A DNA stretch of 64,000 nt from Buttiauxella izardii (GTDB taxonomy: Bacteria; Pseudomonadota; Gammaproteobacteria; Enterobacterales; Enterobacteriaceae): contig NZ_QZWH01000004.1 in the NCBI RefSeq assembly GCF_003601925.1, forward strand, positions 1 to 64,000, read 5' to 3'. The position numbers and the translations under genes were made by a program. Each line of letters begins with the position of its first letter. Within the stretch, counting starts at the first letter, position 1. This document shows positions 25,768 through 34,801 of this stretch, piece after piece. Below the pieces are notes generated by a model. That model was not told the origin of the DNA. It did no database searches and saw only the letters and a list, made by a program, of their open reading frames with translations.

Positions 25768-26343
25768 GTGCCCTTAATTCATTTATTAAAACAGAATCCT
25801 GTTATTGCGGCGGTCAAAGATCAGGAGAGTTTGCAGCTCGCGTTGCAATCCGACAGCCTGTTTATCTCGGTGTTGTACGGCAACATTTGCACCATCACCG
25901 GTATTATTCAGCAGATCAAGAAAGCGAAGAAATACGCTTTTATTCATGTCGATTTGCTGGAAGGCACCTCGAATAAAGAGATTGTGATTAACTTTCTCAA
26001 AATGGTGACCGACGCGGACGGGATTATCAGCACTAAAGCATCGATGGTAAAAGCCGCCCGCACGCAGGGTTTCTTCGCCATTCACCGCATGTTCCTGGTG
26101 GATTCAATTTCGTTTCACAATATTGATAAACAAGTTGCCCAATCGAACCCGGACTGCGTGGAAATTCTGCCGGGTTGTATGCCAAAAGTGTTGGGTTGGG
26201 TGGCGGAGAAAATCAATTTGCCGATTATTGCCGGGGGCCTGGTTTGCGATGGCGAAGATGCAAACGTGGCGCTAAGTGCCGGGGCGCTGGCTATTTCAAC
26301 CACCAACCGAGGTGTCTGGGAACTGGCAAGTTCACTGCGTTGA
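25768..26343 (+). CDS. ygcP: GlpP-family (glycerol-3-phosphate responsive type) antiterminator YgcP
   Basis: YgcP belongs to the GlpP family; Bacillus GlpP binds a leader RNA and prevents termination when glycerol 3-phosphate is present. The 191-residue protein has the TIM-barrel-like family pattern: HVDLLEG, DGIISTKASMVKAAR, DCVEILPGCMPKV and IIAGGLVC, with a phosphate-binding end ALSTTNRGVW-like (AISTTNRGVW). Length equals E. coli YgcP. It is the last gene of ygcN-ygcO-ygcP and its end overlaps the convergent ygcQ by 12 bases. Two nearby leaders (31712-31775 and 31934-31995) share a sequence built into terminators and are its probable RNA targets. That target assignment is inference. Confidence 0.88.
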   Translation: MPLIHLLKQNPVIAAVKDQESLQLALQSDSLFISVLYGNICTITGIIQQIKKAKKYAFIHVDLLEGTSNKEIVINFLKMVTDADGIISTKASMVKAARTQGFFAIHRMFLVDSISFHNIDKQVAQSNPDCVEILPGCMPKVLGWVAEKINLPIIAGGLVCDGEDANVALSAGALAISTTNRGVWELASSLR

Positions 26344-27207
26344 ATATTCTGCCAGTGCCTCCAGCACTGGCATCATTTCATCAACAATCACCACGTCAGC
26401 CTGAGAAAAAATAGCCGCGTTTTCGTCGTTGTTGATAGCCACAATCAGAGTGCTGTCTCGAATCCCTGCGCTGAATGCCGCAGCACCTGAAACACCCGCA
26501 ACAATGCAAACATCCGGGGAAATCATTGCCCCTGACATCCCGATAAGCCGGTCCATTTCGCACCACGCATTCATCACGACCTGGCGGCTGGCCCCAGTTT
26601 CGGCACCCAGTTTTTGCGCCAGCACTTTTACCCGTTCCATATTATGCAAAGTTTCAACGCCTTGCCCCACTGCCAGTACGCATCGGGCGCGCTGGAGTGC
26701 CGGGCGGGGAATATCCTCAAGGCGATTTATCTCCAGCAACCACGGCGGAAAATCATTACTTAGTTGCAGCATTTTTTGAGTAGCAGCAGCAGGAAGAGCG
26801 CCAGGCCGCGACGAGCGGGAAACGCAAACACACCACGGCTTTTCACCCGCGCTAAAACACCCCACCATCGCGTTACCGTAAATCGGGCGTGAAAACGTGA
26901 CTTGTTCAGCTGAAATCATCTTTGTTGCGCCACAAAACGCCAGCCCTTGCAGCCGGGATGCGAGGCGCGTCGCAAGTTCCGTTCCGCGCAGGCCGGAGGG
27001 AAAGAGTAATAAATCTTGTGGCGCGGTGAGAAAATGAGTTTCCAGGGCGACGAGATTGTTTTCTGCAATCCAGGGAGCCGCCCCTGCCAGCCGCCAGATT
27101 TCAAATTCAGGGTCAACCAGTTCAGATTGGTTAATAAAATAACTGATTTCCCCCAACTGGCGTTCGCCCAACTCCCCCTGAGCGGTAATGATTAAAGCTA
27201 TTTTCAT
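26332..27207 (-). CDS. ygcQ: electron transfer flavoprotein alpha subunit-like YgcQ
   Basis: YgcQ is the FixB/ETF-alpha type subunit that binds FAD with its partner YgcR. The C-terminal half carries the ETF-alpha FAD motif: the segment from about residue 200 (GASRQVVMNAW) through ISPDVCIVAGVSGAAAF to IVAINNDENAAIFSQADVVIVDE. It has 291 residues, slightly more than E. coli YgcQ. It overlaps the end of ygcR by four bases and ygcP on the other strand by 12. Electrons probably come from the YgcU flavoenzyme. Confidence 0.87.
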   Translation of the reverse strand: MKIALIITAQGELGERQLGEISYFINQSELVDPEFEIWRLAGAAPWIAENNLVALETHFLTAPQDLLLFPSGLRGTELATRLASRLQGLAFCGATKMISAEQVTFSRPIYGNAMVGCFSAGEKPWCVCVSRSSRPGALPAAATQKMLQLSNDFPPWLLEINRLEDIPRPALQRARCVLAVGQGVETLHNMERVKVLAQKLGAETGASRQVVMNAWCEMDRLIGMSGAMISPDVCIVAGVSGAAAFSAGIRDSTLIVAINNDENAAIFSQADVVIVDEMMPVLEALAEYSTQ

Positions 27208-27992
27208 CGCGGTAATCTCTCACGCAGGAAATTTTCATACAGTAATCGGGCTTTCTCTTGAGGAGTTGCACCGTCAATTTTTTGTGCGCGGCGTGAATAG
27301 TGCTCGCGGGTTAGCACCACATTTGGCGATGAATTTGCAGCGTGCTTCGCTGCGGCTGCCGTAATAATTGGCGCTTTGCTGGCGGCAAGTTTCTGGCGAA
27401 TACCGGGTATACGCAGACTGTAGCGCCCATCGTTCATGACGATAAGCACCACCGGTAGCGCCACGCGGCAGCGCAACCGTTCGCCATCCTGAAGCAGTTC
27501 GACTTCGAGTTGATGATTGGCAGCGTCCACCACAAAATCCACCACGCCTGCAAGAACAGGCCAATCCAGCCGTTCCGCAAGCAAAAAACCGGTTTGTGCG
27601 TTGTTGCCTTCACTGCTCTGGCTGCCTGTTAAAACAAGTGTTTGCGGGTGTTGTTTCACCCATTGAGCCAGCGCGTCTGCCACCTGTTTGGGTGAAAATC
27701 GTAAATCGCACGCACTTTGAGGCTCAAGCCGCGCCAAATGGCTAAAACCCAATGCGTTAAGCTGGCGTAAAAACGGCTCACTGTGCGCGCCACCCAGTGT
27801 CAGTGCGGCCAGGTTAACAGCCTGCGAATGTGTAAGCTGGCGCAGCGCAAGTTCAGCTGCCACTTGTTCATCCAGCCCTATTTGATAGCGGGCGTAACTG
27901 AGATCAAGCGGCCCGGATGTGGCTTCTTGCCATGCCTGTTCCGGCAACATGGAAAGATCAGGTTCCGCTTTAAATGCCAGAAGTATGTTCAT
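27204..27992 (-). CDS. ygcR: electron transfer flavoprotein beta subunit-like YgcR
   Basis: YgcR is the FixA/ETF-beta type subunit that pairs with YgcQ. The 262-residue protein has the AANH-like fold of the family, with an N-terminal KAEPDLSMLP, the adenosine-binding TLVLTGSQSSEGNNAQTG and the recognition-loop region SLRIPGIRQKL. The start at 27992 lies inside the end of ygcS (23-base overlap), which points to coupled translation; an ATG 14 codons upstream was rejected. Confidence 0.86.
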   Translation of the reverse strand: MNILLAFKAEPDLSMLPEQAWQEATSGPLDLSYARYQIGLDEQVAAELALRQLTHSQAVNLAALTLGGAHSEPFLRQLNALGFSHLARLEPQSACDLRFSPKQVADALAQWVKQHPQTLVLTGSQSSEGNNAQTGFLLAERLDWPVLAGVVDFVVDAANHQLEVELLQDGERLRCRVALPVVLIVMNDGRYSLRIPGIRQKLAASKAPIITAAAAKHAANSSPNVVLTREHYSRRAQKIDGATPQEKARLLYENFLRERLPR

Positions 27993-29325
27993 TGATTTCC
28001 CCCGGTAACTTCTCCTTGTTTCCTGAGGCTGCAACCAGCGTCAGATCCTTAGTTTCTGGTGCCCAAAGTATCGAGACAACCAGCCCGAGCAGCAGAACGC
28101 CCGCCAGTATCAGCATTGTGTGTTGCAAGCCCCACGCCGCAAGCGTTAATGGCAGCAGGCCAGTGCTAATCGCTGAACCTAAACGGCTCATGGACGTGGC
28201 AAAACCCACGCCGAGGGAGCGAATATCCGTCGGGAAGCTCTCCGCAGGCAACACGCCTACCAGGTTGCTAATGGCGGAAATCGTGGCGGTAAAGGTGATA
28301 AACAGCGCGAAAATCAGCGAGGTATTGGTGAGAGACGTGAATGCCAGCGCAATCAGGCAAAGAGAGAGAATGGCAAATCCGTTAATCAACAGACTACGCC
28401 GGGAGCAATATTGCGTCAGCACTAAGCCCACTACCGCGCCCACCACCAGCAGAAGATTCAGCAGCAGATTGGCCTGAAGCGAATGCTCGAAACCCACGGT
28501 CTGCATGATTGTCGGCAGCCAGGTGTAAATCACAAAATAAGGGATCACGAGGCAGACAAAAAACAGGCTGTTAAACGCCGTGCGCCGCCAGTATCGCGAT
28601 GAAAATAGCGTGCGTATGTGGCGCGAAGTGGAAACTGCCATTTCGTCGCCCAGCAAGACATTCGGCCCAAGGTGGCGACGCACAATGGCATGAGCTTCCC
28701 GGAAACGCCCCTGGCGCATCAACCAGCGTGGTGATTCCGGCGTCCCCCAGCGTAACAGTGTGATGATTGCCGCAGGCAGCGTTGCTGAGGCAAGCAACCA
28801 GCGCCAGATGTCAGGGGAAAAATCAGCAAAATAGTGGCCAACGAGATTGGCAATAACATAACCCACGGTCCAGACCACGCTGAACGCGCCCAGCAATGTA
28901 CCTCGATGACGGCGTGGCGCAAATTCCGCCAGTAAAGTGTGACCAACGGAATAATCACCGCCCAACCCAATCCCCACCAGAACGCGGAGCCAGAAGAGTT
29001 GCTGCGCGGTTTCGGCAAAAAATTGTAAAAACGAAGCTAAAGTGATCACGACAAAACTGAAGGTAAATATTTTCTGGCGACCCACAAAATCAGAAACCCA
29101 TCCCAGCACCAGGCTGCCAAAAAACAGCCCAAATAGCGCCGCGCCGCCGATCATCCCTTCCTCCAGGGTGGTCAACGAGATTTGTGATTTCAAAGAGATA
29201 AGTGCAAAACCAATAATACCCAGCACATAGCCGTCAGTGAGATGAGCGCCGAAAGTCAGACCGGCAATGCGACAATGAAAACGGTTGAGCGGCAGATCGT
29301 CCATGCGGACTGTTGATGCAGACAT
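27970..29325 (-). CDS. ygcS: MFS transporter YgcS
   Basis: YgcS is a 12-helix major facilitator of the sugar/metabolite:H+ symporter type, 451 residues. Typical family motifs are GWVSDFVGRQKIF between helices 2 and 3, GLGGDYSVGHTLLAEFAPRRHRG, and PESPRWLMRQGR before the central loop. The start MSASTVRMDDLPLNRFHCR at 29325 follows E. coli; an upstream ATG is unsupported. It sits between ygcU and the ETF genes in the minus-strand operon, so it probably imports the substrate of the YgcU/YgcW enzymes. The substrate is unknown. Confidence 0.9.
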   Translation of the reverse strand: MSASTVRMDDLPLNRFHCRIAGLTFGAHLTDGYVLGIIGFALISLKSQISLTTLEEGMIGGAALFGLFFGSLVLGWVSDFVGRQKIFTFSFVVITLASFLQFFAETAQQLFWLRVLVGIGLGGDYSVGHTLLAEFAPRRHRGTLLGAFSVVWTVGYVIANLVGHYFADFSPDIWRWLLASATLPAAIITLLRWGTPESPRWLMRQGRFREAHAIVRRHLGPNVLLGDEMAVSTSRHIRTLFSSRYWRRTAFNSLFFVCLVIPYFVIYTWLPTIMQTVGFEHSLQANLLLNLLLVVGAVVGLVLTQYCSRRSLLINGFAILSLCLIALAFTSLTNTSLIFALFITFTATISAISNLVGVLPAESFPTDIRSLGVGFATSMSRLGSAISTGLLPLTLAAWGLQHTMLILAGVLLLGLVVSILWAPETKDLTLVAASGNKEKLPGEINEHTSGI

Positions 29326-29387
29326 AGCAGCTTCCTTCTGACTCACGGCCAGCAGAAGTGCGGCCTCAAACGAGACCGCACAATATC

Positions 29388-30901: not shown

Positions 30902-31687
30902 CTATCTCACTAAATAACCGCCATCGACAACCAACAAATGCCCATTAACATAATCAGATGCACGACTTGCCAAAAATACCATTGCCCCCATTAAGTCCTG
31001 AGTTTCACCCCAACGATTTGCCGGAATATGGTCAAGTACGCGTTTATTGGTTTCAGGATTTTTACGAGTTTCAGTGGTGATTTCTGTTGCGTAATAACCT
31101 GGGGCAATCCCATTGACCTGAATATTATATTGACCCAACTCATCACAATAGGCTTTGGTAAAACCAGCCAGAGCATGTTTGGTCGCGGAATAAGCCGGTG
31201 ACCATTGCCCACCTAAATAGGAGAACAAAGAACAGATATTAATTATCTTTCCGGATTTTTGCGGAATCATTAATTTTGCCGCCTCGTAGCTCAGCTCAAA
31301 TGCCGCAGTCAGGTTGATGTCAATCATCGGGTCCCAGTCTTCGCGCCCGAAGTCCAGCACCTTGTTTAGCTTACAGATCCCGGCGTTGTTAACCACAATA
31401 TCCACGCGACCAAATCGTTCTTTACAGGCTGCGATAACACGAGCGGGCGCACCTTTTTCAGTAATGTCTACCTGCATAATTTCGACGCTAACACCTTGTT
31501 GCTCAATGATTTCCTTTGTCTCGCCGTTATCCAGAATAAAGCTTGGAATAAACACATTCGCACCACCTTTGGCCAGTGCGACAGCAAATGCCTGCCCTAG
31601 TCCACTGTTGCCGCCAGTAACAATCGCGGTTTTGCCTTTTAACGAGAAGAAGTCGAGTGAAAATTCATTCAGTAAATTCAGTGACAT
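30902..31687 (-). CDS. ygcW: SDR-family oxidoreductase YgcW
   Basis: YgcW is a 261-residue short-chain dehydrogenase, the same length as in E. coli. It has the cofactor motif TGGNSGLGQAFA, NNAG, and the catalytic Ser-Tyr-Lys set in NICSLFSYLGG and YSATKHALAG. It is similar in style to gluconate 5-dehydrogenases and KduD-type enzymes. It is the first gene of the minus-strand ygcW-ygcU-ygcS-ygcR-ygcQ operon and is preceded by GGGGTGAT. A terminator-containing leader lies 25 bases upstream, so expression probably depends on antitermination. Confidence 0.9.
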   Translation of the reverse strand: MSLNLLNEFSLDFFSLKGKTAIVTGGNSGLGQAFAVALAKGGANVFIPSFILDNGETKEIIEQQGVSVEIMQVDITEKGAPARVIAACKERFGRVDIVVNNAGICKLNKVLDFGREDWDPMIDINLTAAFELSYEAAKLMIPQKSGKIINICSLFSYLGGQWSPAYSATKHALAGFTKAYCDELGQYNIQVNGIAPGYYATEITTETRKNPETNKRVLDHIPANRWGETQDLMGAMVFLASRASDYVNGHLLVVDGGYLVR

Positions 31688-31711
31688 ACATCACCCCATA
31701 AGATTAAGGAC

Positions 31712-31775
31712 AAAAAAAATGAGAAAAGCAATCTCCCCCCTGAAGGGAAGCTACTTTTCTCATCGTCTCTAGTAA
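31712..31775 (-). promoter_or_regulatory. ygcW leader: shared antiterminator-type sequence and intrinsic terminator
   Basis: Read on the minus strand, TTACTAGAGAC (31775-31765) is followed by GAGAAAAGTA (31761-31752). The second element forms the 5' arm of a hairpin: ATGAGAAAAG pairs with CTTTTCTCAT (31763-31754 with 31728-31719), and eight T residues follow (31719-31712). This is a textbook intrinsic terminator ending 25 bases before the ygcW ATG. The upstream TTACT can pair with AGTAG at the top of the terminator arm (one G-U pair), which would break the terminator. The same two elements precede yqcE. Control by YgcP is inferred. Confidence 0.75.
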
Positions 31776-31812
31776 CTGGCTTAAATATTTAACACAGCCG
31801 CGAAATCAATTA

Positions 31813-31828
31813 CGTGACTTCTATCACA
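31813..31828. promoter_or_regulatory. CRP-like site on the ygcW side
   Basis: CGTGA-CTTCTA-TCACA differs from the CRP core TGTGA-N6-TCACA at one base. It lies about 40 bases before the conserved start of the ygcW leader, a suitable place for activation of that promoter. Confidence 0.55.
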
Positions 31829-31881
31829 CTCTTTTATTTCCCCCATTACAAAACACGTATCTGTCGTTATTAATTTTAATT

Positions 31882-31897
31882 CGTGATAATTCTCACA
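31882..31897. promoter_or_regulatory. CRP-like site on the yqcE side
   Basis: CGTGA-TAATTC-TCACA again differs from the CRP core at one base. It lies about 40 bases upstream of the conserved yqcE leader sequence and mirrors the other site, so each divergent promoter has one. Confidence 0.55.
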
Positions 31898-31933
31898 CTA
31901 AAAGACTAATTGCTGTGATACTAATTTTAGATA

Positions 31934-31995
31934 TTACTAGAGACCCCGAGAAAAGTAATCCGCCCGCAAGGGTTGATTCCTTTTCTCTTTTTTTT
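31934..31995 (+). promoter_or_regulatory. yqcE leader: shared antiterminator-type sequence and intrinsic terminator
   Basis: TTACTAGAGAC (31934-31944) is followed by GAGAAAAGTA (31948-31957). GAGAAAAG pairs with CTTTTCTC (31948-31955 with 31980-31987), extended by ATC/GAT inside, and eight T residues follow (31988-31995). The terminator ends 36 bases before the yqcE ATG. TTACT can pair with AGTAA (31954-31958), an alternative fold that consumes the terminator arm. The loop (CGCCCGCAAGG region) differs from that of the ygcW leader, while the arm and upstream element are the same, so the shared part has been kept for a reason. Confidence 0.78.
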
Positions 31996-32031
31996 GCCTG
32001 TAAATAACGCTATCAACGACGAGAAAACAAC

Positions 32032-33330
32032 ATGCAACAATCAAATTTTCGCCGCTGGGTCACCCTGGCAATAATAAGTATTAGTGGTGGTGTTAGTTTT
32101 GACTTGGCCTATCTTCGCTATATTTATCAAATTCCGATGGCAAAGTTTATGGGTTTTTCCAATGTAGAAATCGGATTAATCATGAGTACCTTCGGAATTA
32201 CCGCAATTATTCTCTACGCGCCAAGTGGAATTATTGCCGATAAATTCTCCCACCGTAAAATGATGACTAGCGCGATGATCGCAACCGGAATATTAGGTTT
32301 CATCATGGCATCATATCCCCCGTTATGGGTAATGCTGGCTATTCAGGTCGCCTTTGCGATTACCACAATTTTAATGCTGTGGTCGGTGTCGATAAAAGCA
32401 GCGTCATTGCTGGGCGATCACCGTGAGCAAGGCAAGATTATGGGCTGGATGGAAGGGCTGCGCGGCGTAGGTGTGATGGCGCTGGCCGTTTTCACCATGT
32501 GGATATTTTCGCGCTTTCACCCCGATAACAGTAACAGCCTGAAGACCGTCATCCTGATTTACAGTGGTGTTTATATCGCGCTGGGGATTTTGTGCTGGTT
32601 CTTTGTCACCGACGGTTTTACCGCTCGTGAAGCCAGTGCCGAAGAGGTCGCAAAGCCGGCGTTTAAACTGAGCGATATTATCGCGGTGCTAAAAATTCCG
32701 ACCACCTGGTATTGCAGCATGATCATTTTTGGCGTCTATACCATTTACGCCATTCTCAGTTACTCCACGAACTATCTTACTGAAATTTATGGCATGTCCC
32801 TGGTTGCTGCCAGTTATATGGGCATTGTCATCAATAAGATTTTCCGCGCGATGTGCGGCCCACTCGGTGGACTTATCACGACATACAGCCGTTTTAAATC
32901 GCCGACCAGGGTCATTCAATTTTTAGCCTTAATCGGCATTATTACGCTGGTTGCACTGCTAATAACCAACCAGAACCCGCAATCGGTAGCGGTCGGAATC
33001 GGGCTAATTTTACTGCTTGGCTTTACCTGTTATGCCTCGCGCGGGCTGTACTTCGCCTGCCCAGGGGAAGCCCGCACGCCAACATTCGTGATGGGGACGA
33101 CCGTCGGAATTTGTTCGGTCATTGGCTTTTTGCCGGACGTATTTGTGTACCCCATTGTCGGTCACTGGCAAGACACGTTGCCCGCCGCCGAAGCCTATAA
33201 AAACATGTGGTTGATGGGATTGGGCGCGCTTTGCGTGGTGGTGGTCTTTACCTTTTTGCTGTCCCAGAAAATACGACATCAGCAGCCGCGTGAGCATGTT
33301 GAATCATTACAGGAGAATGGAAATGCCTAA
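32032..33330 (+). CDS. yqcE: MFS transporter YqcE
   Basis: YqcE is a 432-residue, 12-helix major facilitator with resemblance to the organophosphate:phosphate and sugar-acid transporter branch. Features include DLAYLRYIYQIPMAKFMGFS in helix 1, APSGIIADKFSHRKM between helices 2 and 3, and a C-terminal hydrophilic tail. It is the first gene after the terminator-bearing leader and its end overlaps ygcE by eight bases, so it forms an operon with the kinase. A phosphorylatable sugar or polyol is a plausible substrate, given that partner. Confidence 0.88.
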   Translation: MQQSNFRRWVTLAIISISGGVSFDLAYLRYIYQIPMAKFMGFSNVEIGLIMSTFGITAIILYAPSGIIADKFSHRKMMTSAMIATGILGFIMASYPPLWVMLAIQVAFAITTILMLWSVSIKAASLLGDHREQGKIMGWMEGLRGVGVMALAVFTMWIFSRFHPDNSNSLKTVILIYSGVYIALGILCWFFVTDGFTAREASAEEVAKPAFKLSDIIAVLKIPTTWYCSMIIFGVYTIYAILSYSTNYLTEIYGMSLVAASYMGIVINKIFRAMCGPLGGLITTYSRFKSPTRVIQFLALIGIITLVALLITNQNPQSVAVGIGLILLLGFTCYASRGLYFACPGEARTPTFVMGTTVGICSVIGFLPDVFVYPIVGHWQDTLPAAEAYKNMWLMGLGALCVVVVFTFLLSQKIRHQQPREHVESLQENGNA

Positions 33331-34801
33331 AAAATATATCATCGGAATTGATGGTGGGAGCCAGAGCACTAAAGTCGTGATGTATGATTTACAAGGAAAT
33401 GTGGTGTGCGAAGGCAAGGGTTTGCTGCAACCGATGCACACTCCAGATGCTGATACGGTTGAACATCCTGACGACGATCTCTGGACGTCTTTATGCGACG
33501 CGGGAAAGGATCTGATGAGTCAGTTTAAAGGCGATGCCGGGGATATTCTCGGCATTGGGCTTGGATCGATTCGTTGTTGCAGAGCTTTGCTAAAAACCGA
33601 TGGCACGCCCGCCGCACCGTTAATTAGCTGGCAAGATGCCCGTGTAACACGCCCTTATGAGCATACCAATCCCGAAGTGGCTTATGTCACTTCGTTTTCA
33701 GGGTATTTGTCGCACCGCTTAACGGGCGAGCGTAAAGACAACGTTGCCAACTATTTTGGCCAGTGGCCGGTGGATTATAAAACCTGGGCGTGGAGCGACG
33801 ATCAGGAAGTGATTAAGAAATTTAATCTCCCACGCCATATGTTATTTGATGTGCAAATGCCGGGCACTGTGTTAGGTAAAATCACTCTCGAAGCATCGCT
33901 TGCGACCGGTTTCCCGGAAGGCTTGCCTGTCGTGTGCAGCACCAGCGATAAAGCCGTTGAAGCGCTGGGTGCAGGATTGCTGGATGACGAAACAGCAGTG
34001 ATTTCATTGGGCACCTATATCGCGTTGATGATGAACGGCAAGGCGTTACCAAAAGATCCGACCTGGTATTGGCCGATTATGTCATCCATTCCTGAAACGC
34101 TAATTTATGAAGGATATGGCATCCGCAAAGGGATGTGGACGGTCAGCTGGTTGCGAGACATGTTGGGCGAGTCCCTCATTAAAGATGCACAAGCGCAGGG
34201 GCTTTCGCCGGAAGATTTGCTCAATCACAAAGCAGCCAAAGTTTCTCCGGGTTGCGACGGTTTAATGACGGTGCTGGATTGGCTGACTAACCCGTGGGAA
34301 CCGTATAAAAGAGGGGCGATGATCGGTTTTAACGCCAACATGAATTACGCCTGGATTTATCGCTCTATTTTAGAAAGCGTGGCGCTGACCTTAAAAAATA
34401 ACTACGACAATATGTGCGGTGAAATGGGTCGCCATGCGAAGCACATCATTATTACGGGCGGCGGCTCAAACAGTGATTTGTTTATGCAAATCTTTGCCGA
34501 TGTATTTAACCTACCCGCAAAACGAAATGTGATTAACGGCTGTGCAAGCCTCGGGGCGGCCATTAACACCGCCGTTGGTCTGGGCGTTTATTCCTCCTGC
34601 GAGCAGGCGGTGGAGAAAATGGTGCGGGTAAAAGATACTTTTGTGCCAGTCGAAAAAAATGCCGCGCTGTATGAAGCGATGAATAAGGAAATATTCAAGG
34701 ATCTCACCAAACACACCGATGTGATATTGAAAAAATCCTATGAAGTGTTTCATGGCAATTTGAATGAAGTGGATTCGATTCAGAGTTGGTCGAACGCGTA
34801 A
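33323..34801 (+). CDS. ygcE: FGGY-family carbohydrate kinase YgcE
   Basis: YgcE is a 492-residue kinase of the xylulokinase/glycerol kinase family with an unknown sugar substrate. The phosphate-1 motif IGIDGGSQSTKVVMYDL is at the N-terminus, ISWQDAR marks substrate binding, and the adenosine motif ITGGGSNSDLFMQIFADV lies near residue 385. The start at 33323 was chosen because AGGAGAATGG precedes it at a good distance and E. coli YgcE begins there; earlier ATGs lie inside yqcE. REP-like DNA follows the stop. Confidence 0.9.
   Translation: MPKKYIIGIDGGSQSTKVVMYDLQGNVVCEGKGLLQPMHTPDADTVEHPDDDLWTSLCDAGKDLMSQFKGDAGDILGIGLGSIRCCRALLKTDGTPAAPLISWQDARVTRPYEHTNPEVAYVTSFSGYLSHRLTGERKDNVANYFGQWPVDYKTWAWSDDQEVIKKFNLPRHMLFDVQMPGTVLGKITLEASLATGFPEGLPVVCSTSDKAVEALGAGLLDDETAVISLGTYIALMMNGKALPKDPTWYWPIMSSIPETLIYEGYGIRKGMWTVSWLRDMLGESLIKDAQAQGLSPEDLLNHKAAKVSPGCDGLMTVLDWLTNPWEPYKRGAMIGFNANMNYAWIYRSILESVALTLKNNYDNMCGEMGRHAKHIIITGGGSNSDLFMQIFADVFNLPAKRNVINGCASLGAAINTAVGLGVYSSCEQAVEKMVRVKDTFVPVEKNAALYEAMNKEIFKDLTKHTDVILKKSYEVFHGNLNEVDSIQSWSNA

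Follow-up and report, generated by a model that had tools for sequence, protein, structure and literature searches.

Paired leaders of ygcW and yqcE as probable GlpP-type conditional terminators read by YgcP

In the window, a 64,000-nt stretch of the Buttiauxella izardii genome, the divergent genes ygcW (minus strand) and yqcE (plus strand) are separated by a gap of 344 bp, which contains the leaders of both. Judging from sequence comparison, it is very probable that both leaders are conditional terminators of the GlpP type that are read by YgcP, so that a single protein would turn both operons on. The first-pass annotation had proposed YgcP as the reader of both leaders, and this proposal is supported by the co-occurrence of ygcP with the leader element, by covariation, by linkage in other phyla, and by a hairpin plan in common with the glp leaders.

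The ygcP gene (25768–26343, plus strand) encodes a predicted RNA-binding antiterminator. Its assignment to the GlpP family, made at the outset, is confirmed by a full-length match to PF04309 (G3P_antiterm; profile positions 1–173 of 173) with a score of 208 bits against a cut-off of 27, which is also the only Pfam match of the protein at E 0.001. YgcP further matches the solved structures 3kts, a glycerol uptake operon antiterminator (E 3e-31), and 1vkf (E 1e-13), and an alignment of eight GlpP/YgcP proteins (A1) has 18 invariant columns. The PF04309 profile weakly resembles HisF-like barrels. The first gene of the putative minus-strand operon is ygcW (30902–31687), encoding a KduD-like SDR dehydrogenase that falls under the NCBIfam cut-offs; the same gene string holds ygcU, an FAD-linked oxidase (PF01565/PF02913; 29388–30860), ygcS, an MFS transporter (27970–29346), and ygcR and ygcQ, the electron transfer flavoprotein subunits (26332–27992). 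The putative plus-strand operon comprises yqcE, an MFS transporter (32032–33330, from ORF and profile match), and ygcE, a sugar kinase of the FGGY family that is under every NCBIfam cut-off (33290–34801, taken as the longest ORF; the true start may be downstream of 33290).

Both leaders carry the same 24-base pattern, TTACTAGAGAC-N3-GAGAAAAGTA, which is present in exactly two copies in the 4.77 Mb genome, one per leader, while its reversed control is absent from that genome. The strand GAGAAAAG forms the 5' arm of the terminator in both cases, and the terminator is followed by eight T. In the ygcW leader (minus strand), the predicted antiterminator hairpin (31749–31777) consists of AGTTACT (31777–31771), the loop AGAGACGATGAGAAA (31770–31756) and AGTAGCT (31755–31749), and the intrinsic terminator (31712–31761) consists of a hairpin at 31761–31721, one A, and the T run at 31719–31712. 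In the yqcE leader (plus strand), the antiterminator hairpin (31932–31960) is made up of ATTACT (31933–31938), the loop AGAGACCCCGAGAAA (31939–31953) and AGTAAT (31954–31959), and the terminator (31948–31995) of a hairpin at 31948–31987 with the T run at 31988–31995. Some of the hairpin and terminator end positions in both leaders were assigned by eye. Thus, the shared pattern described in the first-pass annotation is real, the strand in common serves as 5' arm to a terminator with eight T, and the pairing noted there between TTACT and this strand extends to a stem of 6–7 base pairs. The terminator loops are not alike in the two leaders, again as described, while the arm and the upstream element are shared. 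The sixth stem pair is G-C in the ygcW leader versus A-U in the yqcE leader, a compensatory difference. By these predicted structures, each leader has an intrinsic terminator whose 5' arm is common to an alternative hairpin.

When the two leaders were folded, as had been suggested, the terminator was the stable structure, at −22.8 kcal/mol (z −5.5) for ygcW and −30.4 kcal/mol (z −4.5) for yqcE, with 0 of 200 shuffles as stable in either case. The upstream hairpin is weak on its own (−1.2 kcal/mol, z −0.2, for ygcW; −4.5 kcal/mol, z −1.8, for yqcE), and would therefore need help to form. Likewise, in all of 130 unique leaders the terminator was more stable than the fold obtained when the antiterminator was forced (mean energies of −28.1 versus −10.8 kcal/mol for the ygc type and −33.7 versus −17.0 kcal/mol for the glp type). 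Termination is accordingly the predicted default, and the weak hairpin would require a bound protein. R1, a covariance model of 48 unique elements, gave 47.1 bits (E 2e-8) for the ygcW-leader hairpin and 39.2 bits (E 3e-6) for the yqcE-leader hairpin, both sequences being themselves in the model. An Rfam search of positions 31600–32100 returned a best E of 0.1, far under the gathering score, and in six further loci it returned two gathering matches, neither of them over an element.

The specificity of the element for these two leaders was assessed by scanning other genes as well. In a strict test that required motif, stem and terminator before an ORF, it was found in the enterobacterial loci in 28 of 38 ygcW, 23 of 35 yqcE and 1 of 35 ygcE leaders, and before none of 314 other ORFs. 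The corresponding numbers for the named loci, that is, the best 80 of 177 YgcP-type loci with record titles, were 20/49 for ygcW, 19/37 for yqcE, and 8/672 for other unclassified ORFs; in the Bacilli loci, 0 of 422 other ORFs passed. (Thirteen of the 80 named loci are themselves enterobacterial, several of them from the same genomes as the enterobacterial set, and gene counts are tblastn matches, so that a gene split into two matches is counted twice.) A generalised finder detected the element in the enterobacterial loci before 35/40 ygcW, 35/38 yqcE and 1/37 ygcE genes, and before none of the remaining genes tested; since this finder required the hairpin and terminator to overlap, the overlap is not independent evidence. 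Dinucleotide-shuffled leaders gave 1/332, 1/364 and 1/130 in the three sets (3/826 in total). Scanning of whole loci gave 66 elements in the enterobacterial set (33 of 45 loci), 66 in the named set (46 of 80 loci) and 15 in the Bacilli set (14 of 40 loci), compared to none in one shuffle of each set. A mirror-image control (11 mirror matches versus 59) was dropped because AGAG..GAGA is nearly its own mirror, and dinucleotide shuffles and the leaders of other ORFs were used in its place. There was no sign of autoregulation, with 0 elements in 37 enterobacterial ygcP leaders; candidate elements precede 3 of 79 YgcP-type genes in the named loci (best 80 of 177) and, in the Bacilli set, 1 of 5 YgcP-like and 1 of 39 classical glpP genes.

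Co-occurrence was assessed in 295 genomes of the family, the window's own genome included, of which 41 encode a PF04309 protein over the cut-off. The window-derived pattern (at most one mismatch) was present in 25 of the 295, all within these 41, and in 0 of the 254 genomes without PF04309 over the cut-off. R1, a partly circular test in that the model includes elements of the tested genomes, found 34 of the 41 versus 1 of the 254 others (G256, a weak match with E 0.002); 30 of the 34 had two matches and four had one. The expectation that the pair is retained wherever ygcP is kept therefore held for 34 of the 41 genomes, with seven exceptions. Four of the exceptions (G061, G108, G240, G313) have a divergent PF04309 subtype (L117, L113, L111, L112), 27–30% identical to a classical GlpP, in other gene settings, and in a fifth (G223) ygcP is only a fragment with a stop. 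The last two (G189, G276) have kept ygcP and genes of both operons and lost both elements. At one locus (L076), the ygcW–yqcE gap is down to 130 bp and holds one palindromic terminator common to both strands; the antiterminator arms are gone and, by eye, no CRP-like site is left. The same collapse of the divergent region to a single palindromic terminator is seen in L081; both loci belong to the genus of L080, apparently Limnobaculum.

The divergent PF04309 subtype occurs in some enterobacteria (L111–L117, L125), and a whole-locus scan of these found no GAGA..GAGA element. The gene adjoins a kinase gene together with GlpD-like and FAD-oxidase genes in L111, L112 and L114, and a kinase and an SDR gene in L115–L117 and L125; no reference gene was found at L113.

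Close yqcE orthologues (at least 74% identity) were confined to genomes that also have ygcP, and none of the 295 genomes had one without it. Since the genes of the cluster are passed on together, ygcP cannot be identified as the responsible gene by co-occurrence alone, and co-inheritance accounts for some or all of the co-occurrence of motif and PF04309. Two genomes loosen this caveat. In G182, ygcP is on one contig and the leaders are on another, at least ~28 kb away, and both are retained. In G213 (L110), the ygc cluster is rearranged on one strand, with one element 81 bp before ygcW and a second 166 bp before the ygcE-matched region. The cluster is patchy even inside the genus, as 0 of 11 sampled same-genus genomes had PF04309. 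In G271 (C1:2860660-2861912), yqcE was matched as two overlapping pieces, as if split, beside a ygcP gene and two elements that look intact.

E. coli K-12 has AGTTACC-agagataatgagaaa-GGTAACT before ygcW and ATTACT-agagacctgagaaa-AGTAAT before yqcE, at ~2900362 (minus) and ~2900506 (plus) of NC_000913.3. Its ygcP is annotated as a putative anti-terminator regulatory protein, and the ygc genes are annotated as putative. The leader region of another E. coli record (L066) was matched in 5,019 of 5,426 E. coli genomes, in 4,998 of them over at least 80% of its length; a megablast search of E. coli with the window leaders gave no match. That record, NZ_CP134663.1 (H1), is 4.9 Mb long, is labelled as a plasmid and carries the chromosomal ygc region, and the label looks wrong.

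Beyond the family, we used a second covariance model, R2, trained on 39 enterobacterial elements only. At E 0.01, R2 matched 22 of the 67 non-enterobacterial loci among the best 80 of 177 YgcP-type loci and found no match in the other 45. The matched loci belong to Bacillota, Actinomycetota, Spirochaetota and Chloroflexota, and include an Anaerolineaceae MAG, two Spirochaetes MAGs, Virgibacillus, Halobacillus, Thalassobacillus, several Clostridia or unplaced Bacillota, an Enterococcus, and seven Streptomyces. In some of the R2-negative loci, for example those of Curtobacterium and Sporomusa, diverged elements could be seen by eye. Of 17 whole genomes searched with R1, eight had no match and nine had exactly one, which in every case lay at most 400 bp from the region where the YgcP-type gene had matched; three of the nine matches are weak (E 0.001–0.008), and the model itself contains some of these elements. 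Homologues of the enzyme genes also adjoin the YgcP-type gene and element in Streptomyces clavuligerus and Enterococcus gilvus. In four Lachnospiraceae-type loci (L170, L171, L192, L203), an AUUGC/GCAAU stem encloses a GAGA..GAG loop ~1.6 kb downstream of the YgcP-type gene, possibly representing another class of element.

These distributions bear on the possibility that the leaders are conditional terminators read by another RNA-binding regulator, such as one of the BglG/LicT type, or are RNA-only riboswitches, with YgcP a mere neighbour. We consider this very unlikely. BglG-type RAT hairpins likewise overlap the 5' arm of the terminator, ygcP is co-inherited with its presumed targets, and YgcP binding is a prediction; however, the element tracks the PF04309 genomes, its sole genome-wide match lies no more than 400 bp from a YgcP-type gene in 9 of the 17 whole genomes, the same plan is found before many glpF and glpD genes beside classical GlpP, and no Rfam match lies over the leaders or over the elements in six loci. 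The loop, at 15 nt, is moreover small for an aptamer, which argues against a riboswitch.

Each leader has a CRP-like site with one mismatch to TGTGA-N6-TCACA. The site CGTGACTTCTATCACA (31813–31828, plus strand) is centred 43.5 nt upstream of the ygcW 5' arm (31777), and the site CGTGATAATTCTCACA (31882–31897, plus strand) is centred 43.5 nt upstream of the yqcE 5' arm (31933). These spacings were worked out by hand; the automated scan chose the equally good partner site at 112.5 nt. Across the enterobacterial elements, a CRP-like site (at least 8 of 10 matching positions) was found no more than 130 nt upstream of 70 out of 70, versus 4 of 70 when the sequence was mirrored. The best-matching site was ~42–44 nt upstream in 37 of these elements and 80–118 nt, mostly ~100 nt, upstream in 33, where the partner's site was possibly picked. 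If the CRP-like sites are centred at −41.5 relative to the transcription start, a known geometry for CRP, the transcripts would begin only a few bases from the hairpin. A sigma-70 scan found no promoter at its threshold, so that the proposed starts are derived from the CRP spacing only. In E. coli, ygcW/yqcE is listed as a predicted CRP target (PMC3105977, PMC1794230). The arrangement suggests a gate of CRP and YgcP on both leaders.

Covariation was analysed in the 48 unique elements, which were admitted only if at least four of the five inner pairs could form. Counted from the outside, pair 2 was G-C in 36 elements, A-U in 11 and other in 1; pair 5 was A-U in 46 and G-C in 2; and pair 7, the innermost, was U-A in 35, C-G in 9 and unpaired in 4. 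The outermost of the seven pairs was unpaired in 14 of the 48. There were 22 double-change cells versus 5.5 in shuffles, with 0 of 500 shuffles reaching 22, and 94.3% stem pairing versus at most 54.5% when the partner was slid; the percentage paired is partly built in by the choice of elements, and related sequences can inflate both measures. Two other measures were not above the shuffles: three pairs had a double change versus 2.3 in shuffles (matched by 165 of 500), and there were six further pair types versus 8.0 (matched by 500 of 500). The enterobacterial subset gave the same picture as the full set. The innermost three-way set (5' arm:shared strand:terminator arm) was U:A:U in 35 elements, C:G:C in 9 and C:A:U in 4, so the far arm of the terminator follows the innermost change, as expected if one strand serves two mutually exclusive hairpins. 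The covariation check across other genera that the first-pass annotation had called for came out in favour of the stem. In Curtobacterium, GUCGCU/AGCGAC occupies the position of the stem (by eye, and outside the counts).

It is extremely unlikely that the terminators are ordinary, fixed ones, that the shared upstream sequence reflects one leader copied onto the other, and that regulation is by CRP only. The CRP-like sites before 70 of 70 enterobacterial elements would fit such a scheme, and both terminators can have the same sequence within a genome (L080), which suggests copying. However, the upstream 5' arm, though it adds nothing to the terminator, is conserved across phyla and changes in step with the shared strand, and none of the 48 unique elements departs from the loop bases GAG and GAGA, whereas the spacer varies. 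A third alternative, in which YgcP does bind the leaders but has its main effect on the stability or translation of the mRNA and not on termination, is exceedingly improbable. GlpP also stabilises glpD mRNA in B. subtilis (PMC7430163, PMC7509114), but the three-way covariation fits mutually exclusive structures.

The reading of the leaders as conditional terminators under YgcP leads to the following scheme. Transcripts would start at CRP-dependent promoters, with the antiterminator hairpin near the 5' end, where the 6–7 bp stem GUUACU/AGUAAC would close a loop with GAGA-N4-GAGA. The 3' arm of this hairpin and the second GAGA would double as the 5' arm of the intrinsic terminator. Without YgcP, the far more stable terminator would win, and transcription would halt before ygcW and yqcE. 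With a small phosphorylated ligand, YgcP would hold the weak hairpin and allow RNA polymerase to read through. Most simply, the ligand would be the product of the operon's own kinase, YgcE, by analogy with GlpK-made glycerol-3-phosphate activating GlpP, and because an FGGY kinase is encoded in the second operon; the gene context suggests a phosphorylated compound other than glycerol-3-phosphate. One protein would then switch on import (YqcE, YgcS), the kinase (YgcE), the oxidoreductases (YgcW, YgcU) and electron transfer (YgcQR).

A broader proposal, to which we give a little less than an even chance, is that the stem-GAGA-N4-GAGA-stem' hairpin is an uncatalogued class of RNA and the common target of GlpP and YgcP from Bacilli to Streptomyces, Spirochaetes, Chloroflexi and enterobacteria. 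The facing GAGA blocks could form sheared G-A pairs that are read by the barrel protein, an idea drawn from the invariant loop bases, and the stem sequence would separate paralogous circuits in one cell. E. coli K-12 would then have a hidden two-operon regulon gated by cAMP-CRP and, via YgcP, by the YgcE product. The analysis gives YgcP a defined, predicted RNA target, specified down to single bases, in E. coli K-12, the best-studied strain of the laboratory, and it defines GlpP-type leaders by sequence across phyla. It also offers a route to the substrate, since an inducer of both leaders would be the YgcP ligand or its precursor. In the open-licence literature searched, we found no RNA target described for YgcP and, in agreement with the first-pass annotation, no earlier account of such a switch. 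Parts of the Bacillus element may already be described in the older literature on GlpP. In two surveys of attenuators or ncRNAs, glp or ygc terms are absent from the main text.

Antitermination by GlpP in response to glycerol-3-phosphate is experimentally established in B. subtilis (PMC9604022, PMC7430163). The ygc system resembles that of B. subtilis GlpP, which has the glpD, glpFK and glpT leaders, in having a PF04309 protein, a kinase product as the likely inducer, and a weak hairpin that overlaps the 5' arm of the terminator and has a GAGA-N4-GAG loop, as in many glpF and glpD leaders of Bacilli. In our Bacilli GlpP set (40 loci plus L075 and L122), a stem-GAGA..GAG-stem' plan, scored as GAG-N-GAG within a stem of at least 4 pairs and overlapping the terminator, was present in 29 of 53 glpF/glpD leaders (glpF 12/24, glpD 17/29); it was unmatched in 12 of the 24 glpF and 12 of the 29 glpD leaders, and found in 0 of 29 glpK leaders. 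One example reads GGUC-GGAGAUAUGGAGA-GACC and runs into the terminator, and a leader of Cytobacillus spongiae has, by eye, the same hairpin plan with a GAGA-N4-GAG loop. Four nucleotides between GAGA and the second GAG was the mode in both types (46 of 67 unique ygc-type loops, 24 of 30 glp-type). The stem differs, being GUUACU/AGUAAC in the ygc elements and most often GGUC/GACC in the glp leaders, as does the commonest base before the first GAG (A versus G). The classical leaders do not have the same target sequence: at E 0.05, R2 matched two of the 40 Bacilli loci, and one of these two is a ygc cluster. The two types of leader are thus related in their architecture. In Halobacillus halophilus, a YgcP-type gene with a GUUACU element coexists with a classical GlpP with a GGUC element (L143, L266), which suggests that stem and flank keep the two circuits apart in this organism. 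The ygc system also differs from the GlpP system in its non-glycerol genes, its paired divergent leaders with CRP-like sites, and its Gram-negative host.

A protein-stabilised hairpin that excludes an overlapping terminator is also the principle of BglG, LicT and SacY (for LicT, see PMC7430163), but the protein families are unrelated. The BglG/LicT regulators combine a CAT RNA-binding domain with PRD domains; YgcP, with PF04309 as its one Pfam match, is not a member of that family. HutP of B. subtilis is similarly a ligand-activated protein that prevents termination in a leader, and is described as binding clusters of NAG repeats (PMC7430163), whereas the predicted ygc target is one hairpin with two GAGA blocks. 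The ygc system thus appears to belong with GlpP-type antitermination, as a variant with the same protein family and RNA plan and a different stem, different genes and a different host.
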